From positions 1-55,122 of the forward strand of contig NZ_JAPSHV010000007.1 in the NCBI RefSeq assembly GCF_031179385.1: a stretch of 55,122 bases of DNA. Direction: 5' to 3'. The stretch's first letter is position 1. Each line of letters opens with the position of its first letter. Source of the DNA: Arthrobacter sp. (lineage in GTDB: Bacteria > Actinomycetota > Actinomycetes > Actinomycetales > Micrococcaceae). The notes below the pieces were generated by a model. It was given only the letters and a program-made list of their open reading frames with translations, was not told where the DNA came from and did not search any database. Positions 35,324 to 44,935 of the stretch are shown here, in pieces. The translations under genes and the position numbers were made by a program.

Positions 35324-36313
35324 ATGACAATCATCCAGGCCGAAGGTCTGAAGAAAACGTACAAATCAAAGAGCGGACCGGTGCATGCACTCGCCGGTCT
35401 CAACCTTTCAGTTCCCCAGGGAACGGTGAAGGCCCTGCTCGGTCCTAACGGAGCAGGAAAGACCACCGCGGTCAAGGTGCTGACCACCCTCATCAAGCCC
35501 GATGAGGGGTCGGCGCACATTGACGGCATCGATGTCGTCCGCAATCCGAAGGCGGCTCGGAGAATCATTGGAGCATCCGGTCAGTATGCGGCGGTCGATG
35601 AAAACCTCACGGGGTTTGAGAACCTGGAAATGGTGGGCAGGCTGTATCACCTGGGGGCCAAAACCGCGCGGAAGCGGGCACAGGAACTCATCGAGCAGTT
35701 CGAGTTGACCGAGGCGGGAAACCGTCCGGTCAAAGGCTTCTCCGGTGGTATGCGCCGTCGGATTGACCTTGCCGGTGCCCTGGTTATCAACCCGAAGATC
35801 CTGTTCCTTGACGAGCCGACCACGGGTTTGGACCCGCGCAGCCGGCTCGCGCTGTGGGAAATCATCACGAAGCTCGTCAATGACGGCACCACCCTCCTGC
35901 TGACCACCCAGTATCTGGAGGAGGCCGACCACCTGTCGGACGACATCGCGGTGATCGACGGCGGCAAGGTCATCGCCGAGGGCACGTCGGACGAGCTGAA
36001 GGCCCAGATCGGCGGTCACAGGGTAGTGGTAACTCTTGTCGACGAGGCCGACGCCGGAGCCGCACGCGACATCTTGGCACGCCACGGCGACGGCACGCCC
36101 CTCGTGAACGACCGCACAGTGGAGGTGTCCGTCGTCGAGGGCCCACGCGCGCTGCAGTACGTGCTGTCCGATCTGGGGCAGGCGAACATCAGGCTGCATG
36201 ATGCCGGGATGCGCAGACCCACACTAGACGACGTCTTCCTCACGCTCACCGGCCACAAAGCCGAAGACGAGAAGACCCGGAAGATTGACGCTGAATTGGA
36301 GAATGCACAATGA
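35324..36313 (+). CDS. ABC exporter ATP-binding subunit (DrrA-like)
   Basis: 329 aa. Walker A GPNGAGKTT at residues 40-48, signature FSGGMRRRIDLA, Walker B ILFLDEPTTGLD and the C-terminal domain (about 235-310) of the daunorubicin-resistance DrrA subfamily. It powers export of an unknown lipophilic compound through the partner permease. The ATG at 35324 is placed by the leaderless promoter. The stop overlaps the permease start by four bases (ATGA), so both are made together. No biosynthetic cluster is adjacent. Confidence 0.92.
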   Translation: MTIIQAEGLKKTYKSKSGPVHALAGLNLSVPQGTVKALLGPNGAGKTTAVKVLTTLIKPDEGSAHIDGIDVVRNPKAARRIIGASGQYAAVDENLTGFENLEMVGRLYHLGAKTARKRAQELIEQFELTEAGNRPVKGFSGGMRRRIDLAGALVINPKILFLDEPTTGLDPRSRLALWEIITKLVNDGTTLLLTTQYLEEADHLSDDIAVIDGGKVIAEGTSDELKAQIGGHRVVVTLVDEADAGAARDILARHGDGTPLVNDRTVEVSVVEGPRALQYVLSDLGQANIRLHDAGMRRPTLDDVFLTLTGHKAEDEKTRKIDAELENAQ

Positions 36314-37143
36314 CCGCGGTCACCCAACCCGCCTATGGGAGCGTAGGGTCTCCATTGACTCAGCTGATCTCTGATGGGTGGATCGCCACCCGCAGGAACC
36401 TGATCAAGATCAAGCGGGTCCCGGAGATCCTCGTCTTCACCATTCTCCAGCCGATCATGTTCGTTCTGCTCTTCAGCCAGGTGTACGCCGGTGCCATGAA
36501 CGTGCCCGACTACGTGAACTTCCTGATGGCGGGTATCTTCGCGCAGACCGTCATCTTCGGTTCCACCTTCTCTGGTGCTGCCATGGCTCAGGACCTGAAG
36601 GACGGCATCATCGACCGCTTCCGGACGCTGCCCATGAGCCCTGCAGCGGTACTGATCGGCAGGACCAACGGAGACCTCGTCATCAACAGCATCTCCATGC
36701 TGATCATGATGGGAACGGGCTGGCTGGTTGGATGGCGCGTGACCACGTCTTTCTGGGGCTTCCTGGGCGGCGTCGCGATCCTCCTCCTCTTCTCCTATTC
36801 CTTCAGTTGGGTCATGGCACTCCTGGGAATGAGTGTGCGCAGCCCGGAGGTCATCAACAACGCGTCCTTCATGATCCTGTTCCCGCTGACTTTCATTTCC
36901 AACGCCTTCGTTCCGATCCACACCATGCCGGAGGTACTGAAGAACATTGCGGAATGGAACCCCGTATCCGCCCTTGTCGAGTCGGCGCGGATGCTGTTTG
37001 GGAACACTAACCCGGAATTCCCCGAGCCCACCGCGTGGACCCTCCAGAACCCGATCATCACTGTGATCGTCGGAATTGTCGTGATGCTCACCATCTTCGT
37101 CCCGCTCTCGGTGAAGAAGTTCAAGTCAATCAGTTCCCGCTAG
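36310..37143 (+). CDS. ABC exporter permease (ABC-2 type, DrrB-like)
   Basis: 277 aa with six membrane segments of the ABC-2 type. The N-terminal cytosolic part (DGWIATRRNLIKIKRVPEILVF) and the FRTLPMSPAAVLIGR amphipathic motif between helices 2 and 3 are typical of DrrB. It is coupled to the ATPase before it. A terminator follows ten bases behind the stop. Confidence 0.9.
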   Translation: MTAVTQPAYGSVGSPLTQLISDGWIATRRNLIKIKRVPEILVFTILQPIMFVLLFSQVYAGAMNVPDYVNFLMAGIFAQTVIFGSTFSGAAMAQDLKDGIIDRFRTLPMSPAAVLIGRTNGDLVINSISMLIMMGTGWLVGWRVTTSFWGFLGGVAILLLFSYSFSWVMALLGMSVRSPEVINNASFMILFPLTFISNAFVPIHTMPEVLKNIAEWNPVSALVESARMLFGNTNPEFPEPTAWTLQNPIITVIVGIVVMLTIFVPLSVKKFKSISSR

Positions 37144-37204: not shown

Positions 37205-37831
37205 TCAGGGACGGTGCCGCACCCAACCGCGGCGGCCCGCTTCCGCGATGGCAGCAGAGCGGGTCTCCACACCCAGCTTGCGGTAGATGTGCAGGAGATG
37301 GGTCTTGACCGTGGTTTCGCTGACGTAGAGCTTCCGGCCCAACTCACGGTTGCTCAGCCCTGCGGCCAACAGTTCCAGGATCTCCGCTTCTCGCGGAGTC
37401 AATGCGCCTTCGGGTTGTTGCATCCGCTTCAGAAGGACGGACGCCACCGGCGCGGACAGCGCTGCCTGACCCTGGGCGGCAGCCCGGATTGCGGCGTACA
37501 GTTCCTCCGGCGTCGAATCCTTGAGCAGATAACCCGTGGCGCCGGCGTCGATGACGCGGACAATGTCGGCGTCAGAGTCATAGGTGGTGAAGACGAGGAT
37601 ACGTATGCCGGGAGCGTCGGCTGTTATTCGCCGCGTTGCTTCGATGCCGTCCATTCCTGCACCGATGGCGAGATCCATGAGGACCACGTCGGGCTGCAGG
37701 GCCAGGGCCTGGCGTACGCCGTCTGCTCCGTTGGCGGCTTCGCCCACTACTTCGATATCGGACTGCGTCCCGAGGATGGCGCGTAGTCCGGCGCGCACAA
37801 CGTCGTGATCGTCGATCAGCAGAATCCTCAT
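37205..37831 (-). CDS. NarL/LuxR-type response regulator (SenR-like position)
   Basis: 208 aa. The receiver domain has the acidic pocket DDH at residues 7-9, the phospho-acceptor Asp53 (VVLMDLAIG) and Lys in GYLLKDS. The C-terminal LuxR helix-turn-helix is LTPREAEILELLAAGLSNRELG followed by SETTVKTHLLHIYRKLGV. It is coupled to the kinase gene by an ATGA overlap. Probable targets include the divergent HbpS-like gene; that is inference from position. Confidence 0.93.
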   Translation of the reverse strand: MRILLIDDHDVVRAGLRAILGTQSDIEVVGEAANGADGVRQALALQPDVVLMDLAIGAGMDGIEATRRITADAPGIRILVFTTYDSDADIVRVIDAGATGYLLKDSTPEELYAAIRAAAQGQAALSAPVASVLLKRMQQPEGALTPREAEILELLAAGLSNRELGRKLYVSETTVKTHLLHIYRKLGVETRSAAIAEAGRRGWVRHRP

Positions 37832-38970
37832 GAGGGGTCATCCTGCCGCGGCAGCCACGCTGTGATCACTGTGCCGTCGCCGGGTGAACTCTCCACGGAA
37901 AACGTGCCGTTGAGTTGCTCCGCACGCTGGCGCATCGCGCGTAGTCCGTAGCCGTGGTGTTCAGCGGCCGGATCAAAGCCCCTGCCGTTATCGAACAAAT
38001 CGAGGCTGATACCGTCCGGAACATACGTCAGGGTGAGTACCGCCGTGTCGGCGCCCGAGTGCAGCCTCACGTTCGCCGCTGCGCTCTGGGCTATGCGGAG
38101 GAGGGCATGATTGATCTCCGGGCGGAGGTCATACTCCTCTCCCGTGACGGTGACCTGAAGACCCGGCACCTCAGCTGTAGCGGACCGCAGCGCCTCGGCA
38201 AGCGTCCGGTTACTGAGTTGCGGGGAGGTGAGGTTGTGTACCAGGCTGCGTGCCTCCATCAGACTGCCGCGGACGGATGCCGTGGCCTTTCCCAGATGTG
38301 ACCGCGACGACGACGGCGCGACGTCCCACAGCTGGTCTGCTGCTTCCAGAAGCAGCACCGACTGGGTCAGATCCTGAGTGACTGTGTCGTGGATTTCGCG
38401 GGCGAGCCGTTCACGTTCGGCCAGTGCGCCCTCGCGCTGCTTGCTGGTGCTGAGTTCCGCCTGCGCCTCGGTGAGCTCATCGAGAAGTTTCTTTCGTGCG
38501 AGGCTTTCCTGCTCAACCCTGTTGTACACGGCCAGCATGAGTACAGCCACAGCCACCGGCCCGACGATGAGGGTGATGTCCAGGCCGCCGGTGAGGCGTG
38601 CCAGAGCGATCATCATCACCGCGACAACCACTATCAGGGAGAGACGGGCCGCCCATCCCTTGAGGAGATGCCGGCACACGAAGAACAGGGGAAAGGCGCA
38701 CCAGAGGAAGCTCGGTGCGATATAGGCGACGATTCCCCACAACAGCAACACCGCGAAAAGCCAGCCAACGGCCGTTCGACCCGTCGATAGAAAAATGCTC
38801 CCTGCGGCATATAGAACAACGAGGAGAACGGACAGGGCCAGCAGAACCACCCACTCGCCGTCCAGCCCGTGTGACAGCAGGTACCGCACCGCGGACGTTA
38901 TCAGGAGCAGGTAGAAACCGGCATGCATCCACATCAGAACGGTGGCCCTGCCGGGCAACTGCAAGGTCAT
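37828..38970 (-). CDS. Two-component sensor histidine kinase (HisKA_3; SenS-like position)
   Basis: 380 aa. Five or six membrane segments (about residues 10-150), a coiled linker, the HisKA_3 dimerisation helix with the phospho-acceptor His194 in RLAREIHDTVTQDL, and a HATPase_c domain with N box and GRGFDPAAEHHGYGLRAM. There is no large extracytoplasmic sensor domain, so the signal may come through the membrane part or a partner protein. The ATG at 38970 is chosen on length; upstream in-frame starts reach only polar sequence. A TAAAAT lies about 30 bases upstream. The shared 189-base gap to the divergent lipoprotein gene has no obvious repeats. Confidence 0.9.
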   Translation of the reverse strand: MTLQLPGRATVLMWMHAGFYLLLITSAVRYLLSHGLDGEWVVLLALSVLLVVLYAAGSIFLSTGRTAVGWLFAVLLLWGIVAYIAPSFLWCAFPLFFVCRHLLKGWAARLSLIVVVAVMMIALARLTGGLDITLIVGPVAVAVLMLAVYNRVEQESLARKKLLDELTEAQAELSTSKQREGALAERERLAREIHDTVTQDLTQSVLLLEAADQLWDVAPSSSRSHLGKATASVRGSLMEARSLVHNLTSPQLSNRTLAEALRSATAEVPGLQVTVTGEEYDLRPEINHALLRIAQSAAANVRLHSGADTAVLTLTYVPDGISLDLFDNGRGFDPAAEHHGYGLRAMRQRAEQLNGTFSVESSPGDGTVITAWLPRQDDPS

Positions 38971-39159
38971 GGGGGGCCGATCGGTAGCGGGAACTTCTTG
39001 GATTTTAGCCTGCGGAGAATTCAACTGCCCTCGTCCAAAGGTAGGAGACGGACCTGACTGTAGGTCGTACCCAAAGGTGGTCAAACAGGGGATGTACCGA
39101 TGTGTCCAGCAGCGGGACACTGGAGGTCCAGTCAGCGTCCCGACCAGTCAAGGAGTGTC

Positions 39160-39777
39160 ATGTCCAATACTCATCTTCCCCGCGCGTCCTTCGCCTTCCT
39201 CTCGGCGGCGGCGCTTGCCGCAGCCCTCGTCTCGTGTTCGTCACCCGACACGGACACCGCCGAGCCGGCCGCAGAGGTGACCTCGGAGTCTGCAGCTCCT
39301 GCAACCGAGTCTGCTCCCGCCGAGTCCGCACCGGCTGAGTCGTCCGGTGAGGCCGTGCTCACCATGCCGCGGCTTAGCATTCAGGCAGCCACGGAAGCCG
39401 CTCAGGCTGCTCTCGCGCAGTGCCAGGAGGACAATCTCGGATTCGTATCAGTCGCGGTAGTCGACCGGTTCGGTCAGGTACAGGCCATGCTGCGGGGAGA
39501 CAACGCCGGTGAGCACACCATGGAATCGGCACGGTTGAAGGGTTATACCGCCGCAGCCTTCGGCTCGAATACCTCCGAACTCACGGAACGCGCTGCAGGA
39601 GACGGTGCCACGATCCGCGACATTCCGGGCACCCTGTTCCTTGCGGGGGGCGTGAGCGTGAAGGCCGGGGAGGCGTCCATCGCCGGCATTGGAGTCGGCG
39701 GTGCCCCGTCGGGCGAGGCGGATGAGGCATGCGCCCAAGCGGGTCTTGATGCCATCGCGGACTCCCTTGCAGGCTAG
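39160..39777 (+). CDS. HbpS/GlcG-like (haem-degrading domain) lipoprotein
   Basis: 205 aa. A lipoprotein signal (FAFLSAAALAAALVSC), a Ser/Glu/Pro/Ala-rich linker to about residue 65, then a DUF336/HbpS-GlcG domain: LSIQAATEAAQAALAQCQ, VSVAVVDRFGQVQAMLR, AFGSNTSELTER, then LFLAGGVSVKAGEASIAGIGVGG and EADEACAQAGLDAI. In Streptomyces reticuli the secreted HbpS binds haem and controls the two-component pair SenS-SenR encoded beside it. Here a similar protein is divergent from a NarL-type kinase/regulator pair. The ATG has AAGGAG upstream. Its last 29 bases overlap the next gene. Confidence 0.88.
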   Translation: MSNTHLPRASFAFLSAAALAAALVSCSSPDTDTAEPAAEVTSESAAPATESAPAESAPAESSGEAVLTMPRLSIQAATEAAQAALAQCQEDNLGFVSVAVVDRFGQVQAMLRGDNAGEHTMESARLKGYTAAAFGSNTSELTERAAGDGATIRDIPGTLFLAGGVSVKAGEASIAGIGVGGAPSGEADEACAQAGLDAIADSLAG

Positions 39778-40987
39778 GTTTGCCGGGCTGGCCTGGACGG
39801 CGTTCCTGCTGCTCAGTGTCGGCTGCACCGGCCCGGCGCCCCCCGGGCCGCCACCAACGACGACGCCGGTCGCCTCCCCAACCGCGTCGCCTACTTCGCC
39901 CGTGTCACCGTCGTCCGCAGCGTCACCGTCGTCTGCAGCGTCACCGCCGGCGCCAGCGACGACTGACGGGCCTGAAGAGGCGCCACCGGAGCCGTCGATC
40001 GTGCTTGCAACCCAGGCATCGGGAGACTCCCTCGCCTTCGTGGACCCGGCCGATCCCGCGAATCCCCTCGTGGCAAGTGTCGTGGTCGGGCAGGCACCGT
40101 GGGACGTGTTCGTCGCGGGGGGACAGGCGTTCGTCTCCACAGCGGAAGGCGTGGCGGTAGTCGATCTGGACGATCGGCGTCGTACTGGGTTGATCCCGTA
40201 CGCAAACCCGGCGGGCCGTATCGAGTATGGGGAGTACCGGGCCGGCGGTACCGGCCTCGTAGCCAGCGCCGACGGCGCGTTTGTCTACGTGGCCGTGCTG
40301 CGGGCGGACGGTACCTCCGTGCTGGAGAAGATGGATGTCACGGCCGGCAGGACCGTGGATTCAGTGGAGGTGGGGCTGCGTCCTTTCGACGTCCTGCTAT
40401 CGGGGGACGGTGCCCAGTTGTACACAATCGACCATGATTCCTTCTCCGTACACGTGGTCGACGCCGAGTCCCTCGCAGCACGCCGGATCGAGGTGGCGCC
40501 GTTCGGGATTCAAGGCGGATTAGCCTCCTGGGAAAAACCCCACTACGCAGCCATCGACGATGCGGGCAACCTTCTCCTGCCATACCAGGGCCTTGCGCTC
40601 GCCGTCGTCAATCCCGCTTCGGGCGCCGTGACGGTGGAGAAGATGACCGCGAACTCCCATCAGCACGGCACGGCCATCGTGGAGGACACGCTGCTGGTCA
40701 TAGGGACGGGAGCGTTCGGCAACTCGACAGGCACGCCGAATTTCACCGTGCGTGACCTCGCGACGGATGCCGAAGAGATAGTGCCGCTAAAGCGGCTGCA
40801 CGAAACAGTAGCGCCGTGGGTTCATCCGGAGACCGGCAGGCGTTATGCACTCCTCTCCGGCGGCTACACACGGGACGGGTTTTGGGACGGCATCACCGTC
40901 ATCGACCTGGAGACATTCGAGCAGCAGGAGCTTGCAGTGCCGGGCAGGCCGCAGGCGCTCGCCGTCGTGCCCTCCGGACAGCCCTAG
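39749..40987 (+). CDS. Beta-propeller (YncE-like) lipoprotein
   Basis: 412 aa. A signal peptide with lipobox LLLSVGC (lipid on about Cys26), a Pro/Ser/Thr/Ala linker encoded by short tandem repeats, then a YncE/YVTN-type propeller with blades marked by VASVVVGQAPWDVFVAGG, ADGAFVYVAVLRADG and SGDGAQLYTIDHDSFSVHVVD. The function is unknown; such proteins bind ligands or partners outside the membrane. The ATG at 39749 lies inside the end of the HbpS-like gene in another frame; an ATG at 39689 would lengthen an Arg-rich N-tail and is less likely. It forms an operon with the HbpS-like gene. Confidence 0.82.
   Translation: MPSRTPLQARFAGLAWTAFLLLSVGCTGPAPPGPPPTTTPVASPTASPTSPVSPSSAASPSSAASPPAPATTDGPEEAPPEPSIVLATQASGDSLAFVDPADPANPLVASVVVGQAPWDVFVAGGQAFVSTAEGVAVVDLDDRRRTGLIPYANPAGRIEYGEYRAGGTGLVASADGAFVYVAVLRADGTSVLEKMDVTAGRTVDSVEVGLRPFDVLLSGDGAQLYTIDHDSFSVHVVDAESLAARRIEVAPFGIQGGLASWEKPHYAAIDDAGNLLLPYQGLALAVVNPASGAVTVEKMTANSHQHGTAIVEDTLLVIGTGAFGNSTGTPNFTVRDLATDAEEIVPLKRLHETVAPWVHPETGRRYALLSGGYTRDGFWDGITVIDLETFEQQELAVPGRPQALAVVPSGQP
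39905..39952 (+). repeat. 18-base tandem repeat in the lipoprotein linker
   Basis: Two copies of TCACCGTCGTC(C/T)GCAGCG at 39905-39922 and 39923-39940, then a partial third. They encode SPSSAA repeats in the linker and could vary in copy number. Confidence 0.7.
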
Positions 40988-41111
40988 CAGGGGTCATCCT
41001 TTCGACGTAGTGGGTTCGGCGCAGAATCATCCCCCCGGTCGGCGCCGCGAACGGCAAAGCTTCGTAGGGTTGAAGTAGTCCAAAAATCCCCCTTCCCCAA
41101 GGATGCCCATC

Positions 41112-42071
41112 ATGATTGAGGCAGCAGAACTGTCCAAACGCTACGGCGCCAAGACAGCAGTAGACGGTATTTCCTTCAGCGTTAAGCCGGGACAAGTGAC
41201 AGGTTTCCTCGGACCCAACGGCGCCGGCAAGTCAACGACCATGCGCATGATCGTCGGGCTCGACAACCCGTCGGGCGGCGACGTACGGGTCAACGGAAAG
41301 CACTACGCACAGCACTCAGCGCCGCTGCGTGAGGTCGGCGCGCTGCTCGACGCCAAGGCTGTCCACACCAAGCGCACCGCGTATAACCACCTCCGTGCCA
41401 TGGCGGCTACCCACGGCATTCCGAACAGCCGGGTCAAGGAGGTCATCGAAATGACCGGCCTGGGTCCCGTTGCGAAGAAGCGAGTAGGCGGGTTCTCCCT
41501 GGGCATGGGCCAGCGGCTCGGTATCGCTTGCGCCCTCCTCGGGGATCCGCATACGGTCATCCTCGACGAACCCGTCAACGGGCTGGATCCGGAAGGCGTC
41601 CAGTGGGTTCGTCACCTGGCGAAGGGGCTCGCCTCTGAAGGCCGCACGGTGTTCCTCTCGTCCCACCTGATGTCGGAGATGGCGCTCACCGCGGACCACC
41701 TCATCGTGATCGGCCGGGGCCGGATCATTGCGGATGCCCCGATCAAGGAAATCCTGGCCGGCCACGGTCAGACCCGCGCACGCGTCCGCACCGACCGCCC
41801 GGCGGACCTTATCCGGGCGCTTGCCGCGGACGGCGTTTCGAGCCAGCAGTTCGAATCTGACCTTCTGGAGATCACCGGGGCCGACTCCCGCCGCATCGCT
41901 GAGGTCGCCCTCAACCATCAGATCCTCGTCTACGAACTGACGCCGCTTCAGGCCTCGCTCGAGGACGCGTATATGCAGCTCACCTCCGACGAGGTCGAGT
42001 ACCACTCACACACTCTTCCGCAGGCCGGCGTCACTGCCGGTGGCGGAGCCGGCCTTCAGGAAGGCAAGTAG
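41112..42071 (+). CDS. ABC transporter ATP-binding protein
   Basis: 319 aa. Walker A GPNGAGKST at about residues 34-42, signature FSLGMGQRLGIA and Walker B VILDEPVNGLDP. A C-terminal domain of about 100 residues follows. The FSLGMGQR form of the signature is common in the actinobacterial ABC-2 family that exports peptides or gives resistance to them. The ATG at 41112 follows AAGGA by eight bases; an ATG three codons earlier is too close to that site. The permease gene starts two bases after the stop. 40988-41111 holds no clear terminator. Confidence 0.9.
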   Translation: MIEAAELSKRYGAKTAVDGISFSVKPGQVTGFLGPNGAGKSTTMRMIVGLDNPSGGDVRVNGKHYAQHSAPLREVGALLDAKAVHTKRTAYNHLRAMAATHGIPNSRVKEVIEMTGLGPVAKKRVGGFSLGMGQRLGIACALLGDPHTVILDEPVNGLDPEGVQWVRHLAKGLASEGRTVFLSSHLMSEMALTADHLIVIGRGRIIADAPIKEILAGHGQTRARVRTDRPADLIRALAADGVSSQQFESDLLEITGADSRRIAEVALNHQILVYELTPLQASLEDAYMQLTSDEVEYHSHTLPQAGVTAGGGAGLQEGK

Positions 42072-42073
42072 CC

Positions 42074-42964
42074 ATGGCACACACCGCCACCGCACCGAGC
42101 CCGCAGGGGACCACCAGCCACCGCCGACCGACTTCAGGATCCGGCGTCAATTTCGCTCGCGTCCTCAAGTCCGAGTGGATCAAGGTGACCACAGTTCCGT
42201 CCACGATGATCCTGCTATCCATCACGCTGGTCGTGATGATCGGACTGTCCGCGCTCTTCGCATGGTCAATGGCAACAAGTCAGGCCTCCGCTGAGTCATT
42301 CACGTCTTCCGACCCGGAAATCGCGGCTCAGCTCGCCGCGACCGACTACGGCGAGATGGCGCTGACCGCACCCAGTGCCGGCATCATCTTCGGCCAGCTC
42401 CTGATTGCCTCGCTCGCCGTTGTGCTGATCGCATCGGAATGGGGGACGGGGATGATCCGGTCGACGATGGTCGCCGTGCCCAAGCGAATTCCGGCTCTGC
42501 TCGCGAAGAACCTCATCATCGCCGCCATCGCCTTCGTGGTGGGCGCAGGTGCAGCCTTCATCTCCTACTTCGTGGCGCAGCCGCTCCTCGCACCCGAGGA
42601 CATCGACTTCGCAATCACCACCGACGGCGTCCTGCTCAGCATCGTCAACACCGGTTCCGTACTCGCGCTGATGGCCGTAATCGCCATGTCAATCGGCGCC
42701 CTCCTGCGCAACACCGCCGGCGGCGTCGTGACGGCAATCGGCCTGCTGATGGTGCTGCCCATCATCGTCCAGATCTTCTCCGGCCTCGCGGACTGGATCC
42801 CCGACGCAGCCCGGTTCCTGCCCAGCAGCGCCGGTGAGGCGATGGTGGCCGTCACCACCGTGGAAGACGGCCTGACTCAGTGGCAGGGCGCTCTGGTGCT
42901 CGGCGGCTGGGCCCTTGTACTCCTGGTCCTCTCGCTCATCGTCACCAAGAAGCGGGACGTCTAG
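42074..42964 (+). CDS. ABC transporter permease
   Basis: 296 aa with about six membrane segments and an N-terminal cytosolic stretch of about 45 residues ending NFARVLKSEWIKVTTVPSTMI, the entry motif of ABC-2 permeases. It pairs with the ATPase in front. A two-component system follows after 34 bases but has its own promoter. The substrate is unknown. Confidence 0.88.
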   Translation: MAHTATAPSPQGTTSHRRPTSGSGVNFARVLKSEWIKVTTVPSTMILLSITLVVMIGLSALFAWSMATSQASAESFTSSDPEIAAQLAATDYGEMALTAPSAGIIFGQLLIASLAVVLIASEWGTGMIRSTMVAVPKRIPALLAKNLIIAAIAFVVGAGAAFISYFVAQPLLAPEDIDFAITTDGVLLSIVNTGSVLALMAVIAMSIGALLRNTAGGVVTAIGLLMVLPIIVQIFSGLADWIPDAARFLPSSAGEAMVAVTTVEDGLTQWQGALVLGGWALVLLVLSLIVTKKRDV

Positions 42965-42986
42965 CGGGCTGAAGAAGCACACCCAA

Positions 42987-42992
42987 TAAGCT
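42987..42992 (+). promoter_or_regulatory. -10 element of the second two-component system
   Basis: TAAGCT six bases before the ATG at 42999; no ribosome site, so a leaderless transcript separate from the permease. Confidence 0.5.
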
Positions 42993-42998
42993 CACTCC

Positions 42999-44255
42999 AT
43001 GAGTGAAAAAGCCTTGGTGAAGGAGACGTCGGAGCGAACGGCCGCCGTCTCCTTCACCGAGATCAATGCACGACGACTCGGACCCATCCGCCGGTACTTC
43101 CGGTCGCATCCGCGGATGATGGATGCCGTCGTCGTTTTCCTGTTTCTCCTGGCCAGCCTGCCCAATGTCGTCCTGCCTGTTGAAGGCGCCCCGGGTTGGT
43201 GGGCCGCCCTACCCATTTGTGCAGCAGCACTCGTCCTGTTCTTCCGCCGCATCACGCCGCGGACAGTACTGGTAGCACTGTGCGTCATCGAACCGGTCGC
43301 CCTGCTCTACTCGGATGCCCGCTCCACCGTCGGCATCGGAATCTGGTTTGCGTTATATGCCGTCTCGGTTGCGTTTCAGCTGCGCACGGCGATCGGGGCC
43401 TTTGCCCTCGCGCTTGTCGCCTCGGTTCTGCCGCTCGCCTTCATCCCCGACATCGTCCCCGGAGAAGCTCCCTACCTGGTGTGGGTCATCATGGGCTTCG
43501 CTGTCATGTGGTACGTCGTGGCCGTCGGCGTCGGCGTGACCATCCGCCGGGAAAGGCTCCATGAGAATGAACTGCGTGAGTGGGCGGAGCGGAACGCCGA
43601 ACTCGCCTCCGCCAATGAACGGAACCGGATTGCCCGGGAGATGCATGACGTGGTTGCCCACTCGCTTTCCGTGATGATTGCACTGTCCGACGGCGCCGCC
43701 GTCGTCATGAAGCGCGATCAAGACCGTGCGCGCGACGTGCTGAGCGAACTCTCGGCCACTGGGCGTACCGCGCTCGCGGACATGCGGAGGGTCCTCGGCG
43801 TCCTTCGGGAAGGACCCGACTCCGCGCCGTTGGCACCGTTGCCCGCGGGCGGTTCACTGGCGGGGCTTCTCGAGGGATTCCGCGCCGCCGGGCTGCCCAT
43901 CCGCGTGCAACTCAGCGGACCCGGGCTGCCGGAAGATGCTGCGTTCCAGATGACCATCCACCGAATCATCCAGGAGTCGCTCACCAATGTGCTGCGCTAC
44001 GCCAAAGCCGTGACAACGGTTGACGTGCTGATCGCGCGGTTGGGCTCCACCGTGAGGGTGCGCGTCTCCGATGACGGCCGGGGCGCCATGGACCCTGTGC
44101 CGTCGGTCGGCACCGGTCAGGGAATCGCCGGCATGCGGGAACGGGCGGCCATCTACGGCGGGACGGTAACCTGCGGACCCGGACCGTCCGGCGGCTGGAT
44201 CGTCACCGCTGAACTACAGATTCCACAAGAGAACCGTCAGGAGAAGTCTGCGTGA
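42999..44255 (+). CDS. Two-component sensor histidine kinase (HisKA_3)
   Basis: 418 aa. A cytosolic N-tail, five or six membrane segments from about residue 42 to 182, and the HisKA_3 helix with the phospho-acceptor His216 in NRIAREMHDVVAHSLSVMI. The HATPase domain has DDGRGAMDPVPSVGTGQGIAGMRERAAIYGG split over the G boxes. The kinase shares its type with the SenS-like protein at 37.8 kb but not its gene order. It is coupled to the regulator by a four-base overlap. Placement behind an ABC exporter suggests it senses a compound the exporter handles. Confidence 0.92.
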   Translation: MSEKALVKETSERTAAVSFTEINARRLGPIRRYFRSHPRMMDAVVVFLFLLASLPNVVLPVEGAPGWWAALPICAAALVLFFRRITPRTVLVALCVIEPVALLYSDARSTVGIGIWFALYAVSVAFQLRTAIGAFALALVASVLPLAFIPDIVPGEAPYLVWVIMGFAVMWYVVAVGVGVTIRRERLHENELREWAERNAELASANERNRIAREMHDVVAHSLSVMIALSDGAAVVMKRDQDRARDVLSELSATGRTALADMRRVLGVLREGPDSAPLAPLPAGGSLAGLLEGFRAAGLPIRVQLSGPGLPEDAAFQMTIHRIIQESLTNVLRYAKAVTTVDVLIARLGSTVRVRVSDDGRGAMDPVPSVGTGQGIAGMRERAAIYGGTVTCGPGPSGGWIVTAELQIPQENRQEKSA

Positions 44256-44935
44256 GTGAACCGATAAGAGTCCTCCTGGTGGACGACCAGCCGCTCCTCC
44301 GAATGGGTTTCCGGCTCATCCTTGAGGGCGAGGAGGACATGCATATCGTCGGGGAAGCGTCCGATGGCGCCGAGGGGGTGCGGTTGACCGAGCGGCTGAA
44401 GCCCGACGTCGTCCTCATGGACGTGCGGATGCCAACTATGGACGGCATCGAGGCGACCAGACGCATCACTGACTCGGGCAGCTGTGCCCGGATCATCATC
44501 CTGACGACCTTCGATCTTGACGAGTACGCGTTCGCCGGCCTGCGGGCCGGGGCCTCGGCCTTTCTTCTCAAGGACGTTGCACCGAACGAGCTCGTGCACG
44601 CAGTGCGGGTGGTTGCCAGCGGGGACGCCGTCGTCGCGCCCAGGGTCACCCAGCGCCTCCTCGAGGAATATGTGCGCTCCCAGCCGAGCGCGCCGAAAAC
44701 TCCGCGGGACCCGTTGCTGCAGGATCTGACCCCGCGTGAGCTCGAGGTCCTCGGCGCAATTGCCGAGGGCCTGTCCAATGCCGAGCTGGCGCACCGGTTC
44801 TTCCTCTCGGAAGCCACCGTGAAGACACACGTCCGCCGGATCCTCACCAAACTGCACCTGCGCGACCGCGTCCAGGCCGTTGTCTACGCCTACGAGACCG
44901 GCCTGGTGACGCCGAGCCAGGGACTCGATTTCTGA
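44252..44935 (+). CDS. NarL/LuxR-type response regulator
   Basis: 227 aa. Receiver with DDQ at residues 11-13, Asp57 (VVLMDVRMPTMDG) as phospho-acceptor and AFLLKDV. The LuxR output domain is LTPRELEVLGAIAEGLSNAELA followed by SEATVKTHVRRILTKLHL. It begins with GTG overlapping the kinase stop. Targets are not visible, but the adjacent ABC exporter is the natural guess. Confidence 0.93.
   Translation: MSEPIRVLLVDDQPLLRMGFRLILEGEEDMHIVGEASDGAEGVRLTERLKPDVVLMDVRMPTMDGIEATRRITDSGSCARIIILTTFDLDEYAFAGLRAGASAFLLKDVAPNELVHAVRVVASGDAVVAPRVTQRLLEEYVRSQPSAPKTPRDPLLQDLTPRELEVLGAIAEGLSNAELAHRFFLSEATVKTHVRRILTKLHLRDRVQAVVYAYETGLVTPSQGLDF

Follow-up and report, generated by a model that had tools for sequence, protein, structure and literature searches.

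In the HbpS-SenS-SenR system, a well-studied case of two-component signaling, it is a separate exported protein and not the kinase that senses. HbpS of Streptomyces reticuli is reported to be exported by the twin-arginine translocation (Tat) route and to have Thr113 as a haem site, and its H28A variant is described as forming monomers instead of the octamer (PMC3754957). The protein is also reported to switch the autophosphorylation of SenS (PMC3184428). Here we describe a related locus at positions 37,205 to 40,987 of a 55,122-nucleotide stretch of DNA from Arthrobacter sp. (Micrococcaceae; contig NZ_JAPSHV010000007.1), which is called the window below. Because an HbpS cluster with kinase and regulator has already been listed for Arthrobacter aurescens (PMC4991794), the three-part reading of this locus is right but not new. 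On balance, the locus is probably a Micrococcaceae variant of the system in which HbpS is lipid-anchored and probably thiol-switched, with an accessory partner that is exchangeable.

The window resembles the systems of S. reticuli and S. coelicolor in having an exported HbpS-domain protein, a divergent NarL-type kinase and regulator, a kinase membrane part homologous to that of HbpS-linked kinases in Streptomyces-like genomes, and the residues Thr113, Lys83 and Asp143. The published relative orientation of the kinase and regulator genes, judged from a figure legend, is matched as well. The window differs in having a lipid anchor, with a lipobox signal instead of Tat export, in lacking Tyr77, Glu81 and His28 while carrying Cys45 and Cys146, and in having a second lipoprotein gene; its clade also lacks a DNA dyad that is common among relatives.

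Other described systems share single elements with the locus. The haem-responsive ChrSA/HrrSA systems of Corynebacterium, with the haem exporter HrtBA, have a NarL-type pair, and a related dyad occurs among relatives of the window at HrtBA-type genes beside a paralogous pair. The ChrSA/HrrSA systems are not known to include an HbpS protein, and no kinase partner is known for the PduO C-terminal domain or GlcG-OrfY. The latter belong to the same fold family as the window HbpS, but the PduO C-terminal domain is described as intracellular, with bis-His haem ligation (PMC4923194).

Layout and conservation of the divergent core

The features of the locus are as follows.

37205..37831, minus strand: NarL/LuxR-type response regulator, SenR-like (Pfam Response_reg and GerE; orthologue adjoining the kinase in relatives)
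37828..38970, minus strand: membrane histidine kinase, SenS-like (Pfam HisKA_3/HATPase_c; about six hydrophobic segments by hydropathy)
38971..39159, no strand: divergent intergenic region (relatives' common dyad absent here)
39150-39155, plus strand: Shine-Dalgarno AAGGAG of hbpS (from the sequence)
39160..39777, plus strand: HbpS-domain lipoprotein gene (Pfam PF03928, HbpS-like, 90 bits against a cut-off of 25)
39235..39237, plus strand: HbpS lipobox cysteine, LVS-C (from the sequence)
39421..39423, plus strand: Cys in place of HbpS Ala45, where the N-terminal helix ends (conservation; modeled helix 9-25)
39730..39732, plus strand: Cys in place of HbpS Tyr146, where the C-terminal helix starts (conservation; modeled helix 120-139)
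39749..40987, plus strand: seven-bladed YVTN/YncE-like beta-propeller, predicted lipoprotein (weak NCBIfam matches, AlphaFold model, homologues)

The longest start of the kinase reading frame is GTG 39120, but ATG 38970 is more likely the true start, since most relatives show homology only from a point downstream of it. The 29-base overlap between hbpS and the propeller gene noted in the original prediction holds given the propeller start ATG 39749; the overlap would be 89 bases with TTG 39689 and 11 with TTG 39767.

Conservation was assessed in 245 genomes of the family and 394 of the class. An HbpS orthologue (E <=5.3e-44) is present in 28 of the 245 family genomes, the window's own included, with the next match at 4.4e-9. 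These 28 loci and that of Arthrobacter sp. Soil782 (L003) make up the 29 loci of the Micrococcaceae set. The divergent core of this four-gene arrangement is conserved far beyond chance because a divergent kinase and regulator stand beside hbpS in the window and in 27 of the 28 other orthologue loci (28/29). At the class level, the HbpS profile matches 44 of the 394 genomes at E <=1e-12, among them the window's genome and two relatives. The class counts given here cover 26 selected loci among these matches, of which 23 come from one Streptomyces-like genus; the remaining weaker rows were left out. The divergent pair is found at 23 of the 26. Both sets, together with the homology of the kinase membrane part (below), bear out the proposed likeness to HbpS-SenS-SenR, and the lipoprotein and kinase genes are not rarely together in relatives. 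A search for the full four-gene arrangement found the three-gene core to be widespread, but the propeller as its fourth gene at only 3 of the 29 loci.

The kinase gave 35 matches in the 245 family genomes at E <=1e-55. Among the best 25 (E <=1.4e-78), 24 adjoin HbpS and one, in genome G220, adjoins an ankyrin gene without HbpS, and two of the 10 weaker matches (G215, G006) also adjoin HbpS. At one locus (L058, genome G039) the kinase gene is split over two reading frames, with HbpS and an ankyrin gene adjoining. The window's genome also has a second HbpS-domain gene above the Pfam cut-off (L001; G000:C30:11330-11713).

Kinase membrane part and HbpS residues

The claim that the kinase lacks a large external sensor domain agrees with its hydropathy: within residues 9-153, the hydrophobic stretches are joined by short loops. 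A profile built from this membrane part alone matches 23 of the 26 class loci, the same 23 that have the divergent pair, and scores the window's other NarL-type kinase at -2.2 bits; the comparison is with HbpS-linked kinases of Streptomyces-like genomes, not with a named SenS sequence. A membrane cysteine in an APSFxWC motif is present in 25 of 28 Micrococcaceae and 22 of 23 class rows of HbpS-linked kinases and in both ankyrin-linked kinases, and is missing from all three HrtBA-linked paralogues, which sets these apart in the comparison with ChrSA/HrrSA-type systems. In the kinase tree, to which a long-branch warning applies, the three paralogues and the 23 class rows form separate, supported groups, and the Micrococcaceae rows are not united in a single group.

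The closest solved relative of the window HbpS is S. reticuli HbpS (3fpv, E 1.5e-31). Its signal peptide ends in a canonical lipobox, LVS-C. Thus the lipid anchor originally predicted for HbpS stands for the window, but it is not a general trait, as a lipobox was read by eye on HbpS in only 6 of the 29 loci.

The residues known from S. reticuli were compared by alignment in HbpS numbering, using the 29 Micrococcaceae-set loci and 24 class rows (two of the 26 class loci gave no HbpS row). Thr113 is conserved in 29/29 of the former, as are Lys83 and Asp143. Tyr77 is found in none of the 29 (Met in the window) versus 21 of the 24 class rows, Glu81 in none (Arg in the window) versus 13, and His28 in none (Arg in all 29) versus 22. 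The Tyr77 dityrosine site is a feature of the mechanism, and the internal Glu78-x-x-Glu81 iron site is best regarded as another such feature that does not strictly define HbpS-SenS-SenR, because Glu81 is present in only the 13 class rows mentioned. Since Thr113 is kept while Tyr77, Glu81 and His28 are lost, haem sensing at this locus appears only partly backed.

Two cysteines, Cys45 and Cys146, are present in all 29 Micrococcaceae-set loci, and neither occurs in the 24 class rows. (The cut alignment rows show Cys146 in 24 loci and are truncated for the other five; the count of 29/29 comes from a full check.) An HbpS model with a mean predicted local distance difference test (pLDDT) score of 86 places Cys45 in the N-terminal helix (9-25) and Cys146 in the C-terminal helix (120-139). 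For PduOC, which has the same fold, these two end helices are reported to run antiparallel and to stay exposed when the octamer forms (PMC4923194). Because both cysteines are modeled in these end helices, a Cys45-Cys146 disulfide is plausible in the window-type HbpS.

The gene after hbpS and a dyad among relatives

The position after hbpS is an exchangeable slot, occupied usually by an ankyrin-repeat protein gene, here by the propeller gene, and in a few Streptomyces-like loci by both. The propeller gene directly follows hbpS at three of the 29 loci (the window, L003 and L039), all between the same ABC (ATP-binding cassette) transporter genes. At the 25 other kinase-bearing loci an ankyrin gene takes this place in 22 (L046 by a partial match only), with none found after hbpS in L044, L051 and L056, and 19 of the 22 ankyrin proteins carry a lipobox-like signal. 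The genes for HbpS, ankyrin protein and propeller are consecutive in the Streptomyces-like loci L101 and L113, whose ankyrin proteins have no visible export signal. In genome G581 a contig ends after hbpS-ankyrin (L107) and a propeller gene lies at another contig end (L138), so that the same row probably spans the contig break. In five more Streptomyces-like genomes an ankyrin gene and a propeller gene are paired away from hbpS (L139-L143). Overall, the propeller gene follows an ankyrin gene in all seven Streptomyces-like cases uncut by a contig end, two of them behind hbpS and five elsewhere. The propeller was originally described as an addition to the system; it is better read as one occupant of this slot, found together with the usual occupant in two distant loci. 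The tie of the window propeller to the pathway rests on the gene overlap and on the three loci of its clade. No ankyrin, propeller or lipoprotein partner of HbpS was found in the open-licence literature (subscription papers were outside its scope).

Fourteen selected ankyrin loci away from hbpS were examined, and signaling genes are present at three: a regulator at L151, and a kinase with a regulator at L152 and L155. An obligatory link between the ankyrin protein and the kinase was rejected, as 11 of the 14 loci lack kinase and regulator alike. At L152:5029-7678 (G220), an ankyrin lipoprotein gene is directly divergent from a SenS/SenR-like pair, with no HbpS gene within the stretch.

The propeller protein itself has no Pfam match at 0.001. 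Its NCBIfam matches (YVTN repeat, PQQ-associated propeller, MmpL3/TtfA stabiliser and hydrazine synthase beta) are weak and all below cut-off, and by sequence the PDB offers 1l0q (8e-12) and hydrazine synthase beta (0.007). The best of five AlphaFold models, built with two sequences in the alignment, has a mean pLDDT of 80, and the other four range from 43 to 63. This model resembles the seven-bladed propellers 1l0q (Z 31.9) and Escherichia coli YncE (Z 27.7), at 14-20% identity to YncE/YVTN structures in structural alignment. Because Foldseek neighbours are mostly generic seven-bladed propellers (WDR5 and others), the fold does not assign the protein to a family. It shares the seven-bladed fold with YncE/YVTN propellers but has the distinct motifs KPHYA and MTANxHQHG, which are conserved among its own relatives. 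Its lipobox, SVG-C, is weaker than that of HbpS; homologues have LAG-C, LSA-C or LVS-C (read by eye).

Genome searches with a three-row propeller profile found homologues at 1e-30 in 11 of the 394 class and 8 of the 245 family genomes, two genomes being in both sets. The HbpS system is present in 9 of the 11 propeller-bearing class genomes versus 26 of 394 overall (hypergeometric 3e-10, with kinship ignored). That the propeller is specific to the window clade was considered and rejected, as homologues occur across the class set, Streptomyces-like hbpS loci included. More distant homologues in two genera (L145 and L148) adjoin oligopeptide-type ABC transporter genes (read by eye). The window's four-gene cassette is flanked by two sets of ABC exporter genes (window 35324-37143, 41103-44935), one a DrrA-like pair and the other accompanied by a NarL-type kinase and regulator of its own; between the same flanks L003 and L039 have the full cassette and L146 the propeller alone. 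By domain search these neighbours are ABC-2-type permeases (the second under its cut-off) and not HrtB-type, and an HrtB query found no match in the window at 1e-15 (haem oxygenase was not searched for). In its neighbours the window thus departs from ChrSA/HrrSA, where the haem-responsive pair adjoins genes for a haem exporter or a haem oxygenase.

A k-mer search of hbpS upstream regions yielded the dyad TCAGCC-TTTT-GGCTGA, or TCANCC-N4-GGNTGA. Between hbpS and the kinase gene, 21 of the 29 loci match it at 14-16 of its 16 positions, and 200 shuffles per locus reach <=13, although these are not an independent test because the dyad was discovered in the same 29 loci on which it was scored. It is present in 21 of 23 loci with an ordinary HbpS signal and in none of the six, the window among them, whose HbpS has a lipobox. 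In 24 chosen genomes, 33 sites were found at one mismatch, 20 of them at hbpS, with none for a reversed control and with three genomes siteless. Thirteen sites lie elsewhere: three at HrtBA-type genes, one before a DUF2871 gene, eight scattered (L200-L207), and one (L199) without a gene call. When half-sites with one mismatch and any four-base spacer were sought at the class loci, 22 of 23 kinase-bearing hbpS loci had the dyad versus none of the three others, the spacer was GATC in 22/22 of the hbpS dyads, and 34 sites were found in all versus 8.7 expected.

The dyad also stands upstream of the ankyrin-propeller pairs away from hbpS, in three of five at one mismatch (L139, L140, L143) and in five of five when relaxed to two mismatches around a CCGATCGG core (0.00-0.10 expected per locus). 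These five sites precede the ankyrin domain by about 230-275 bases (L141 after allowing for a longer profile match). In Micrococcaceae, three TCAACCTTTTGGTTGA sites (L195-L197) separate a paralogous kinase-regulator pair from divergent ABC transporter genes. The L195 permease matches chain B of PDB entry 7w78 (E 2.5e-67), which we take to be the haem exporter HrtBA, and L196 and L197 carry the same permease and ATPase at 62-81% identity. The same 16-base dyad is found upstream of a DUF2871 membrane protein gene (L198:3017-3552), and L197 has a gene similar to it (62% identity) downstream of the HrtBA-type genes. A CCGATCGG core at 38977-38984 was considered as the window's operator and rejected, since its outer bases match at one of six positions and it is not exactly kept in L003 and L039.

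Proposed mechanism and alternatives

In the reading that we favor, HbpS would be held by its lipid on the outer face of the membrane, where, by analogy with the described system, it probably binds a tetrapyrrole or becomes oxidised. It would then control how active the neighbouring kinase is, a multi-span protein of the NarL type that by homology should signal through the regulator. Conservation suggests that the oxidation step probably takes place on the Cys45/Cys146 pair, in two paired exposed helices, and not at Tyr77 and Glu78-x-x-Glu81. The second lipoprotein, here the propeller, is probably an accessory of the pathway: it could dock onto HbpS or the kinase, or it could be a regulated output that shields exported proteins. 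A more specific version joins three elements: a thiol-switch HbpS whose Cys45-Cys146 disulfide replaces the tyrosine and iron chemistry, a partner module of interchangeable repeat proteins (ankyrin, propeller or both) that in G220 replaces HbpS before the kinase, and a dyad regulon tied to haem export. This combination as a whole should be taken as tentative.

A number of observations weigh against the favored reading. Kinases of this type are not confined to HbpS loci, with 8 of the 35 matches at 1e-55, all within the 10 weaker ones, lying away from HbpS. Conversely, L038 (G035) has hbpS without a divergent kinase or regulator within the examined stretch, which holds a run of 100 N, and G035 has no kinase match at 1e-55 genome-wide; its propeller homologue lies close to where a contig ends, and its HbpS is on a different contig. 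Four proteobacterial relatives have both Cys45 and Cys146, of which only Cys45 is informative because the search peptide included Cys146. The ankyrin loci away from hbpS mostly lack kinase and regulator (11/14). In G193, of the window's genus (L146), the same ABC-transporter genes flank the propeller gene but HbpS, kinase and regulator are all missing, and the homologues of G024, G211, G239, G391 and G031 have other surroundings. The relatives' dyad is missing near the locus in the window, whose 55 kb contain four one-mismatch matches versus 2.5 expected. Finally, binding of the regulator to the dyad is putative, because the published SenRc consensus, CGGGCCGCGTCCCG, is given as a different inverted repeat (PMC4991794).

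The second lipoproteins might instead all be outputs, stress-protective or scaffolding proteins made when the regulator is on, and not parts of the sensor. We regard this as possible, if short of probable: the ankyrin-propeller pairs away from hbpS have the dyad in common and not the kinase, but in G220 the ankyrin gene is directly divergent from the kinase as if it replaced HbpS. A precedent would be AnkB of Pseudomonas aeruginosa, which, going by the title of a paper cited in PMC3534063, supports the catalase KatB. Like the slot ankyrin protein, AnkB is an exported ankyrin protein tied to oxidant defence; its gene adjoins a catalase gene, and no HbpS or kinase is known there.

It is unlikely that the core is a true HbpS-SenS-SenR system in which the propeller is a passenger lipoprotein with a role of its own, for example in metal handling or envelope scaffolding. 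The low count of three in 29 loci, the solitary propeller of G193 at the same site and the further homologues elsewhere would fit such a passenger. However, the invariable order after an ankyrin gene in the seven uncut Streptomyces-like cases, the hbpS-type dyad (0 to 2 mismatches) at the five pairs away from hbpS, and the excess of the HbpS system among propeller-bearing class genomes, even with kinship ignored, all speak for a link to the pathway. Still more doubtful is the proposal that the kinase itself senses haem or redox state through its membrane cysteine, like the haem-binding ChrS/HrrS, with HbpS mainly a haem or iron sponge, since S. reticuli HbpS is reported to switch SenS itself (PMC3184428), even though the distribution of that cysteine and the same dyad type at HrtBA-type genes favor it.

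If the locus is a lipid-anchored, thiol-switched variant with an exchangeable partner, as we favor, then a system known for sensing by a separate protein has seemingly exchanged its sensing chemistry and swapped a second protein between two unrelated folds, which makes it possible to ask which parts contact the kinase. The dyad gives direct access to the regulon, and because it also occurs at haem-exporter genes, haem is a signal that can be tested.

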